A stretch of DNA of 35,338 nt from positions 1-35,338 of the IMG/VR virus record IMGVR_UViG_3300032093_000432; one strand, written 5' to 3'. The notes beneath the pieces are model-generated. The model was not told the origin of the DNA and searched no databases. It saw only the letters and a list, made by a program, of their open reading frames with translations. A program made the position numbers and the translations under genes. Position 1 is the first letter of the stretch. Each line of letters opens with the position of its first letter. This stretch comes from a virus. Below, one piece after another: positions 170-7,727 of this stretch.

Positions 170-1003
170 ATGAGTAATCCGTTAAGTCAATACTTTCACA
201 CTCCCAAAGCTTATGTACAATTGCCAACACAAGGAAGATTTTACCCTCCTGACTTTGTTGAAACATCCGCCAATGGTGAAGTGGCTGTGTATCCATTGAC
301 AGCAATTGACCAAATAATGCTGAAAACTCCAGATGCTTTGCTGAACGGTGATGCTTTGTTGAGCGTGTTCAAAAATTGTGTTCCAGGGGTGAAAGATCCC
401 AAGCAGCTGGTGGAACCTGACATCAACACATTGTTGGTAGCCATAAGGATAGCCAGTGCTGGTTCCACAATGGAAGTGGAAACCACATGCCCCAATTGTG
501 GAAAAGAGCACAATTTTGGAATTGATCTCAGTGGATTTATTGAAACCCAAAGCACTGTGGAAGGTCCCACGTATGTGGAAATTGACGGCGCACTGCAAGT
601 TTTCCTACGCCCTTATAATTTTCAACAGAGAAACCTGCAACTATTGAATGAAGTTGAACAAGCCAGATCCATAAAAGTGTTGGAAGAAACAGAAACCACT
701 GATGCTGAAAAAATCAGCAGTGTAACCAAGCAAATCAATCAAATGGCTCAGCGAACTCTAGACATCATGAGCATGAGCATTACTGCAATCAAAATAATCA
801 GCACCGGTGAAACAGTAACAAACCCGGGATACATTCAAGAGTTTGTGAAAGGTATTCCCACAACCAGTGCCAATGCCATTATCGACAAACTCAAAGAGTT
901 GAATTCCATTGGTGTTGATACAGAAACCAGTTTTCAATGCGACGCTTGCAGCCACTCTTGGAGTCAAAGAATCGACTTCGATCCCACAAGTTTTTTCGAA
1001 TAA
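170..1003 (+). CDS. 26: T4 gp26-like baseplate hub / tail assembly chaperone protein
   Basis: This 277-residue protein resembles the T4 gp26 family of baseplate hub assembly proteins. It has two CxxC pairs, CPNC near residues 107-110 and CDAC near 259-262, which could form a zinc ribbon, with an acidic, mostly helical middle. It is longer than T4 gp26 (about 208 residues). The ATG at 170 is preceded by a weak AGGG. The last codons lie on a T TTT TTC slippery heptamer at 991-997, followed by a strong stem-loop, and the -1 frame is open to 1239. The short protein and a longer fusion are therefore both expected, as for tail assembly chaperones of other phages. The gp26 assignment is by motif and T4-type context. 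Confidence 0.7.
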   Translation: MSNPLSQYFHTPKAYVQLPTQGRFYPPDFVETSANGEVAVYPLTAIDQIMLKTPDALLNGDALLSVFKNCVPGVKDPKQLVEPDINTLLVAIRIASAGSTMEVETTCPNCGKEHNFGIDLSGFIETQSTVEGPTYVEIDGALQVFLRPYNFQQRNLQLLNEVEQARSIKVLEETETTDAEKISSVTKQINQMAQRTLDIMSMSITAIKIISTGETVTNPGYIQEFVKGIPTTSANAIIDKLKELNSIGVDTETSFQCDACSHSWSQRIDFDPTSFFE

Positions 1004-1051
1004 AGCTTCTCAGAGGTGATCCCCAGGAGATCACCAAAACACTGAGAAGCT
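991..1051 (+). promoter_or_regulatory. Candidate programmed -1 ribosomal frameshift signal
   Basis: The heptamer TTTTTTC (991-997) sits exactly in the zero frame as T TTT TTC, a canonical -1 slippery site. A 6-nt spacer follows (998-1003, containing the zero-frame stop). Then comes a nested hairpin: a 10-bp outer stem pairs 1004-1013 with 1042-1051, and a 7-bp inner stem pairs 1015-1021 with 1029-1035 around a 7-nt loop. Slippery site, spacer and structure match the layout of known bacterial and phage frameshift sites. The -1 frame stays open for 80 codons. Confidence 0.8.
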
Positions 1052-1239
1052 GTGAAAAAGAAGTGGAAATGATTGAAAGCGATATTGCAAACCTAGTGTA
1101 TTACATGAACGGTGGTTTGACCTACAGTGAAGCTTGGCATCTTTCGACAACACAGATGCAAGCCTTGTCTGGAACTATTTCAAAACACTATGAAATGCAA
1201 GCAGAAGCCTATCGTAGAGCACAAACCAAGAAGGTATAA
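997..1239 (+). CDS. -1 frame extension of the gp26-like gene (gp51-like second part)
   Basis: After a -1 shift at 991-997 the frame reads 80 further codons to the TAA at 1237-1239, giving a fusion of about 356 residues. The extension is helical and charged, with the segment ANLVYYMNGGLTYSEAWHL that recalls the second part of phage tail chaperones. T4 encodes gp51, another hub assembly factor, and this piece may be its counterpart, but that is uncertain. An independent start is possible at the ATG at 1069, preceded by GAAAAAGAAGTGG, which would give a 56-residue protein. The part upstream of 1069 is open and encodes charged residues, which suits the fusion model. Confidence 0.65.
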   Translation, partial: RIKLLRGDPQEITKTLRSCEKEVEMIESDIANLVYYMNGGLTYSEAWHLSTTQMQALSGTISKHYEMQAEAYRRAQTKKV

Positions 1240-6005: not shown

Positions 6006-7727
6006 GTGATTTTGGCAGAATTGAAAGAACGTTGGTTGAACAAGGAGATTACACCTAATAGGTTGACAAAGTTGTTGCCTATACACAAAGAAGAGCTAGA
6101 CAAATTATTTCCTTATGAAGGTCCAATTGCAGCTAAATTTTATGCATACGTTCATAACGGTAATGCAGAAAACAGTTGGTGTGAACAGAGTGGTAAGTTC
6201 AGGACATTCAATAATATGGTTCGAGGGTTCAGAAAATTCTGTGGTAATCAATCTCAATGCTCCTGTAATCGTGAATATCAGGAAAGCGTTCGACACAGCC
6301 GCACTAGAGATGAAATAAATCATATTCACGAAAAACGTAAAAATACCAACCTTCAAAAGTATGGTTTTGAGTATGCAAGTCAACATGACAAGGTCAAAGC
6401 CAAAGCTGAGACCACATGTTTTGAAAAGTATGGTGCAAAAGCTCCAACCTTAAATCCTGTTGTTTTAGACAAAGCACAAAAAACGATTCAGGAAAATTGG
6501 GGAGTAAGCTTCCCTCAGCAACATCCTGATATAAGAACCAAAACTATAGAGGTGTTTCAAAACACTTATGGAACACCGGTTCCTGCTCAAAACCTGGAGG
6601 TGTTAGTTAAAACCAAAAAAACCAACCTCTCAAAATATGGTGTTGTGGCCCCGTTTTTGACAACAGAGCATAGGGAGACCAATAGGAAAACTTTTCGGCA
6701 AAAATCTTGGGATTCCTATATTGCAAATAGGACTGATTACATTCCGTTATTCACTCAAAAAGAATTTTTGGACTCACATCGTTATTCTGAACATTTGTTT
6801 GTTTGCCAAAAATGCCATAACCAATTCAGTGTTGCCTTGAAAAGAGAATCTGATTTGCGTTGTTTTGATTGTTATCCAAGAAAAGAAAGTTGGGGAGAAA
6901 CAAAGATCAAACAATGGTTGTGGGATAATAACATATCTTTTGATCAATGGAATAGGGAAGTTATCAAGCCATTGGAGATTGACTTTTATCTCCCAGATTT
7001 AAATGTGGGTATTGAGTTCAATGGCATTTTTTATCATTCAGATTGCCAAATAGGAGACAAAAAATATCATCAAAATAAATGGAAACAAGCTCTTGAAAAA
7101 GGTGTCAGGCTTGTTCAAATTTGGGAACATGAGATGGTGCAAAAACCCAATATCATATTTGATAGATTGTCACACGTAGTGGGATTGAAAAAAACAATTG
7201 TTGGTGCACGTAAATGTAACATTACAGTTGTGGATTTTGGGACAGCTAAAACATTTATTCAGAACTCACATTTGCAGGGCAACATACCAACCAAACATAT
7301 TTGGGGGTTGGAACACAACGGGTTGCTTGTTGCACTTGCTAGCTTTGTCAAAACTAGGTATAGCAAAGGGAGTGATTATGAGCTGGCCCGATATTGTATT
7401 TTGCCTGGGTATCATGTCCCAGGGGGGCTTAGCAAACTTTTGAATCATGCACATCAGGAGTTGGGATTCAAAAGCTTGGTGTCCTACAGTAACTTGAACT
7501 GGGGACTGGGAAATGGTTACGAGAAAACAGGCTTTGAGTTAAGTCATATCAGTCCACCCAATTATTGGTATTGGAAAAATATAAATGACGTTCAGAGTCG
7601 ACTTAAATTTCAAAAACACAAAATACAAGGCTTAGCTGCGGGCAATACAGAGCAGGAAATTGCCAAAAATTTGGGCTACAATCGTTTTTATGATGCAGGC
7701 AACGCAGTGTGGATCAAAAAATACTAG
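6006..7727 (+). CDS. Free-standing homing endonuclease, Hef/Vsr-like (EDxHD) type
   Basis: The 573-residue protein starts with GTG at 6006, with GGAG at 5995-5998. Residues about 105-235 contain several copies of a KYG-type repeat (NLQKYGFEYAS, CFEKYGAKAPT, NLSKYGVVAPF), like the DUF723/NUMOD modules of phage homing endonucleases. Residues about 294-350 form a Vsr-like nuclease core: WGETK, then IDFYLP, then GIEFNGIFYH. The C-terminal 190 residues resemble the tail of the Hef-like family. Such enzymes cut related genomes lacking the gene and spread by recombination. It lies between gp47 and gp55 and is convergent with gp55 (4-nt overlap). No host gene appears interrupted. Confidence 0.8.
   Translation: MILAELKERWLNKEITPNRLTKLLPIHKEELDKLFPYEGPIAAKFYAYVHNGNAENSWCEQSGKFRTFNNMVRGFRKFCGNQSQCSCNREYQESVRHSRTRDEINHIHEKRKNTNLQKYGFEYASQHDKVKAKAETTCFEKYGAKAPTLNPVVLDKAQKTIQENWGVSFPQQHPDIRTKTIEVFQNTYGTPVPAQNLEVLVKTKKTNLSKYGVVAPFLTTEHRETNRKTFRQKSWDSYIANRTDYIPLFTQKEFLDSHRYSEHLFVCQKCHNQFSVALKRESDLRCFDCYPRKESWGETKIKQWLWDNNISFDQWNREVIKPLEIDFYLPDLNVGIEFNGIFYHSDCQIGDKKYHQNKWKQALEKGVRLVQIWEHEMVQKPNIIFDRLSHVVGLKKTIVGARKCNITVVDFGTAKTFIQNSHLQGNIPTKHIWGLEHNGLLVALASFVKTRYSKGSDYELARYCILPGYHVPGGLSKLLNHAHQELGFKSLVSYSNLNWGLGNGYEKTGFELSHISPPNYWYWKNINDVQSRLKFQKHKIQGLAAGNTEQEIAKNLGYNRFYDAGNAVWIKKY

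Follow-up and report, generated by a model that had tools for sequence, protein, structure and literature searches.

Does the gp26-like gene near the start of this viral sequence encode a single protein, or does a programmed -1 ribosomal frameshift add a second, longer one? The sequence, a viral record 35,338 bases long, is referred to here as the window. On its plus strand, positions 170-1003 encode a 277-amino-acid protein with two CxxC pairs that matches PF12322 (T4_baseplate, gp26/gp51) with an E value of 6e-17 and 62.5 bits, against a curated cut-off of 24.5, and phrog_150 with an E value of 1.8e-20. These profile matches identify the product as a homologue of T4 gp26 and bear out the T4-type gp26-like gene proposed in an earlier, sequence-only reading of the window. 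AlphaFold2 modelled the 277-residue protein with a pLDDT of 86.8 and a pTM of 0.81. The nearest gp26-like proteins of named phages, among the best 40 of 63 records, come from jumbo phages (about 287-490 kb), PA5oct/MIJ3, Phosso and Atu_ph07 among them.

The final codons of the gene, AGT TTT TTC GAA TAA, place a T_TTT_TTC slippery heptamer at 991-997 in zero-frame register (TTT at 992-994, TTC at 995-997). It is followed by a 6-nt spacer, GAATAA (998-1003), which contains the zero-frame stop at 1001-1003, and then by two nested stems: a 10-bp outer stem in which AGCTTCTCAG (1004-1013) pairs with CTGAGAAGCT (1042-1051), and within it a 7-bp inner stem in which GGTGATC (1015-1021) pairs with GATCACC (1029-1035). 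Folding of the RNA from 985 to 1070 gave -28.6 kcal/mol with a z score of -4.9, and none of 200 shuffled sequences was equally stable. From the slip point, 82 codons of the -1 frame (991-1239) are open before its own stop at 1237-1239, and 78 of these lie beyond the zero-frame stop; the predicted fusion, 170-1239, has 356 amino acids. AlphaFold2 predicted the extension, the C-terminal part of this long form, to be all-helical (pLDDT 89.8). Heptamer, register, spacer with stop, nested hairpin and open -1 frame had all been described in the sequence-only reading, and each was found in place.

On the reading that we favour, with a probability of about 0.9, a jumbo-phage gene for a tail assembly chaperone of T4 type undergoes programmed -1 ribosomal frameshifting at this locus. 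We infer the slippage, its rate and the chaperone role as follows: the majority of ribosomes would terminate at 1001-1003 and release the 277-residue short form, while a minority, slowed by the stem beginning 6 nt past the heptamer, would slip from TTT-TTC to TTT-TTT and read the -1 frame to 1239, giving a 356-residue long form whose C-terminal domain is helical. If lambda G/GT is a guide, both products would coat the tape measure protein while the tail is being assembled.

To follow the site through relatives, we assembled a jumbo-phage set of 97 gene copies, comprising the window, 16 named jumbo phages and 80 of 259 IMG/VR relatives, which collapse to 71 distinct gene ends. T_TTT_TTC stands in register in 68 of the 71; the exceptions are XacN1, with T_TTT_TTT, and two loci (L052 and L067) with A_AAT_TTT. 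The distance from heptamer to stop ranges from 3 to 33 nt, with a value of either 3 or 12 nt at 60 of these 68 ends. Past the stop, the -1 frame is open for 57-78 codons in 69 of the 71 ends, the remaining two running off their contigs. Protein identity to the window is only about 29-37% outside the window's own clade, so conservation of the heptamer does not reflect recent copying. As a control, neighbouring ORFs of the jumbo loci write Phe-Phe as T_TTT_TTC in 5 of 84 pairs (6 of 99 in a recount).

A second set came from a search that started from three proteins, two of cyanophages and one of a Vibrio phage. Its 80 IMG/VR loci, taken from at least 575 confirmed candidates, together with three named records make 83 copies and 79 distinct ends. 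All 79 carry T_TTT_TTC in register, always one codon before the stop, and the -1 extension is open for 50-66 codons in 75; three others run off contigs and one is S-SCSM1. In neighbouring ORFs of these loci, Phe-Phe is written T_TTT_TTC in 2 of 146 pairs. The loci of both sets were found by peptide patterns that exclude the slip site, and since they share descent the heptamer counts are not independent events. A zero-frame heptamer of the X_XXY_YYZ form is conserved beyond codon chance. In S-SCSM1 (L110, 2175-2210) the heptamer is kept and the extension lies in the +1 frame; comparison by eye with L139 shows an 11-nt insertion just past the site, which is either a sequencing error or a real, broken frameshift.

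Beyond these sets, the heptamer is present in DLP_6, Cronobacter S13 and S-TIM4, and RL38J1 and its one relative (L216) have T_TTT_TTG. At the gene ends of Cba120 and Vibrio D510 we looked for the heptamer and found none, and it is likewise missing from 15 further Kuttervirus-like contigs, which have ATT TTC after GAG or GAA. Kuttervirus and Vibrio D510 nevertheless keep the -1 extension without the heptamer. In Kuttervirus-type gp26 genes (L196, L201-L215), the -1 extension is open for 53 codons past the stop and has no obvious start.

The extension itself bears the marks of a coding sequence. Median dN/dS past the stop was 0.275 in the jumbo set (61 pairs) and 0.143 in the cyanophage-like set (247 pairs), close to the core-gene medians of 0.276 and 0.130. 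Values below 0.5 were found in only 56% of the 61 jumbo pairs and in 99% of the 247 cyanophage-set pairs, and the window's clade gave 0.16-0.17. By these measures purifying selection acts on the -1 extension, which is conserved. Directly after Phe-Phe, the first -1 residue is Arg at 65 of 67 jumbo and 75 of 78 cyanophage-set loci; selection therefore acts on the -1 reading from the slip point itself.

This last result bears on the alternative that the heptamer is incidental and the -1 frame forms a small gene of its own, which cyanophage annotations call "gp51" and which would be translated either from a separate start or after reinitiation. A separate CDS is indeed annotated in several records; in S-TIM4, S-SCSM1 and DLP_6 the downstream piece is called gene 51 or baseplate hub assembly catalyst. 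No joined CDS is annotated at this place in 28 named records, among which T4, AM101 and phiAS4 are without such a site. Possible starts also exist: an ATG lies at 937 in the window's -1 frame, 59 of 78 cyanophage-set loci have some -1-frame ATG between the upstream stop and codon 16, and four of the 71 jumbo-set ends (L017, L018, L019 and L020) have a TAATG overlap at the stop that would also allow reinitiation. Against an independent gene, start candidates (ATG, GTG or TTG) between the upstream stop and codon 16 of the -1 frame are absent from 31 of 67 loci in the jumbo set and from 17 of 78 in the cyanophage set, and a start accompanied by an SD-like 4-mer was found at only one of 67 and seven of 78, respectively. 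An upstream -1 ATG is absent from the window's closest different relatives, at 88% (L004 group) and 84% (L008 group) identity. Together with the conserved Arg and a heptamer far above codon expectation, these observations make an independent gene very improbable. The programmed -1 frameshift is supported because it passed the sequence-based tests set for it at the outset: the heptamer is kept in relatives, and independent starts with a ribosome site are rare. Judged on sequence, the frameshift is very likely real and old.

A canonical -1 site also has a stimulator, either a structure a few nt downstream or an SD-like element upstream. RNA folding of the first 60 nt gave mean z scores of -0.82 in the jumbo set (controls, -0.04) and -1.13 in the cyanophage-like set (controls, -0.62), but this measure missed long stems and was therefore replaced by helix-offset tests. 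In the jumbo set, the helix score by start of the 5' arm peaks at 15.5 at +6 nt after the heptamer, and outside offsets 6-8 it ranges from 7.5 to 12.3. The 99th percentile of the in-gene control was reached within 100 nt by 27 of 67 jumbo sites (0.8 expected); at the same threshold, 14 reached it within 60 nt and 21 within 150 nt (0.7 expected each). The arms vary in sequence among jumbo lineages and yet pair, as in GGCTTTCGAC/GTCGAAAGCC and GGCTTTCGTC/GACGAAAGCC. At 40 of 67 sites there was no helix above the threshold within 100 nt, and the stem is therefore not universal. The optimum at +6 is the position at which the window's own stem starts.

The cyanophage-like set behaves differently, with only 5 of 75 sites passing the helix test (1.1 expected). 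Plain counts of SD 4-mers (79 of 80 in the cyanophage-like set, 1 of 67 in the jumbo set) proved uninformative because they are forced by Glu-Gly codons, and we dropped them in favour of a codon-bias test. Glu-Gly codons upstream of the site take the form GAGG or AAGGG at 70 of 75 sites, against a proportion of 0.336 expected from codon use, in a comparison made across loci related by descent; other Glu-Gly pairs of the same gene take the favoured form in 6 of 17 cases. These results suggest two types of stimulator, a downstream helix at +6 in jumbo phages, present in some lineages and absent from others, and a codon-biased, SD-like element upstream in the cyanophage-like phages.

How does this gene relate to genes 26 and 51 of T4? 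Both T4 proteins match PF12322 (gp26, 8.8e-64; gp51, 3.9e-52), and gp51 has an extra C-terminal tail, which phrog_634 matches. The cyanophage-set extension matches this tail in phiAS4 gp51 (E 1.7e-10) and T4 gp51 (E 1.6e-5), and hhalign gave a probability of 95 against 0.1 for a reversed control. Taken alone, the jumbo extension matches gp51 weakly (hmmsearch E 0.0058 at best; hhalign probability 29, reversed 0.2), as it does the cyanophage-set extension (5.9; reversed 0.15-0.28), and we set aside a link from the extension sequence standing alone as too weak. When complete fusions of the jumbo and cyanophage sets are compared, the alignment spans 279 columns and runs through the slip point, with a probability of 98.2 and an E value of 3.8e-14 (cores alone, 97.5), and it is only because the full fusion aligns in this way that the link of the window's extension is convincing.

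By these alignments, T4 gp26 corresponds to the short form; its paralogue gp51 is full-length, a gp26-like domain with a tail homologous to the cyanophage-set extension fused in frame. Because genes 26 and 51 of T4 are divergent, we rejected the notion that each of their proteins is one half of a single frameshift product. Where T4, AM101 and phiAS4 have two divergently transcribed genes, the window has a single gene with a frameshift site. These three phages have two PF12322 copies each, and the end of gene 26 lacks the heptamer in all three. Of 29 other genomes searched, 28 have a single copy (22 of 23 in one search, 6 of 6 in another). In SCTP-2 the profile found no PF12322 copy, although tblastn recovered a homologue. 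Cronobacter S13 carries the label Straboviridae yet has one PF12322 copy and the heptamer, and the generalization that all tested Straboviridae have two copies was dropped for that reason.

In a 24-row tree of the gp26/gp51 family, the gp26s and the gp51s of T4, AM101 and phiAS4 form sister clades, weakly supported (80/63), and the single-copy, heptamer-bearing S13 lies beside them (87/91). Cba120 and D510 group together (96/91) beside the heptamer-bearing Bakedbeans (98/94). Tree and copy numbers fit a history in which duplication replaced frameshifting inside T4's family and the site was lost separately in the Kuttervirus/D510 branch. We lean slightly towards a broader version of this history, in which the T_TTT_TTC frameshift would be ancestral in the T4 superfamily. 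The heptamer would have stayed fixed while branches swapped the stimulator, the jumbo branch using a stem placed exactly 6 nt downstream and the cyanophage branch an SD-like element. Once the lineage of S13 had diverged within the family of T4 itself, duplication into 26 and 51 would have taken the place of the frameshift there, and the Kuttervirus/Vibrio D510 branch, having lost the site separately, would make the extension some other way.

What the two products do is a separate question. In lambda, G and GT are two forms that coat the tape measure protein during tail assembly, and a short and a long product are the layout of tail assembly chaperones. Lambda G/GT, P2 E/E+E' and HK97 gp13/gp14 are frameshifted chaperones of this kind. 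The window's gene resembles them in having a short form and a -1 extended long form that share an N-terminal domain, as predicted from sequence only, and a slippery site close to the zero-frame stop. It differs in that no sequence similarity to them was shown and the fold match to HK97 is weak (2ob9_A, Z 5.9, 100 of 107 residues aligned, rmsd 5.0, rank 19, within noise). The model of the gp26-like protein matches other gp26 models (Aeromonas phage 25 Gp26, E 7.8e-8). Foldseek returned no match to solved tail chaperones under an E value of 0.001 and the extension had no clear match among them, and on these grounds we rejected a direct fold link.

A further difference from lambda, P2 and HK97 is that the tape-measure-like neighbour lies head to head with the gene and not downstream on the same strand. 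Its first codons occupy 1-84 on the minus strand of the window, and the complete ORF, in a related contig (L003:1624-3915), encodes 763 amino acids with no cysteine, a helix-prone start and a Gly/Ala-rich end, and adjoins the portal gene. Because it has no PHROG match, we can only guess from composition that it is a candidate tape measure gene; the record of RaK2 notes similarity of the equivalent neighbour to the phiFL4A tape measure protein.

Many of the records listed call the gp26-like product baseplate hub, and the CBB label is structural protein. The frameshift could therefore be real and the protein a structural part of the baseplate hub, a view that also draws on genetic evidence, reported in the T4 review PMC3004832, that the hub contains gp26. 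A table in the same source, however, gives gp26 and gp51 as hub assembly chaperones, and the AM101 record names both proteins tape measure protein assembly chaperones. A passage of PMC10885494 (PRFect) cites Vladimirov et al. 2022 for some T4-like phages with separate short and long chaperone genes, and one in PMC12846349 (Adele) cites it for poly-T slippery sequences in T4-like chaperone genes. With the two-product layout, these identifications make a purely structural role unlikely and a role as tail assembly chaperone likely.

Judging by these passages, the literature already contains both the assignment of gp26/gp51 to the tail assembly chaperones and the poly-T slippery sites of some T4-like phages. 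The tie between gp26/gp51 and tail chaperones drawn in the sequence-only reading is thus supported without being new, with the refinement that gp51 is not the second half of gp26. In the literature passages covered, we found no report of a jumbo or cyanophage gp26 frameshift, though Vladimirov et al. 2022 may contain some. Among the Vandenendeviridae/Andersonviridae, phage Adele (PMC12846349) offers a parallel, a conserved -1 frameshift at a poly-T site in a contractile-phage chaperone gene, argued from a -1 frame open across alleles; the slip site there is GTTTTT and here T_TTT_TTC.

Two other features of the window deserve mention. Following the extension, 1256-1654 contains no long ORF, and over 401 nt it shares 95.5-96.0% identity with sister contigs, against only 84-88% for their gp26-like proteins. 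It contains no tRNA and no Rfam family at threshold, its overall fold is not unusual (z -0.28), and it had no match in the named-phage collection. An exact 33-base piece of it occurs in 11 IMG/VR contigs, those that yielded the window's close gp26 relatives. It is possibly a conserved non-coding RNA or control region. Further along, 6006-7727 holds a homing-endonuclease-like gene (phrog_3339, E 1.5e-105) that adjoins SbcD- and SbcC-like genes on the other strand.

What is added here are the members from jumbo phages, the rule of a stem at +6 and the distinction between two kinds of stimulator, with which Vladimirov et al. 2022 may overlap. The exchange of stimulators around a slippery site that stays fixed would amount to a natural experiment. 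If the site works, a hidden long tail chaperone would be common to jumbo and marine T4-like phages, and T4 would be the derived case, with gene duplication in place of recoding.
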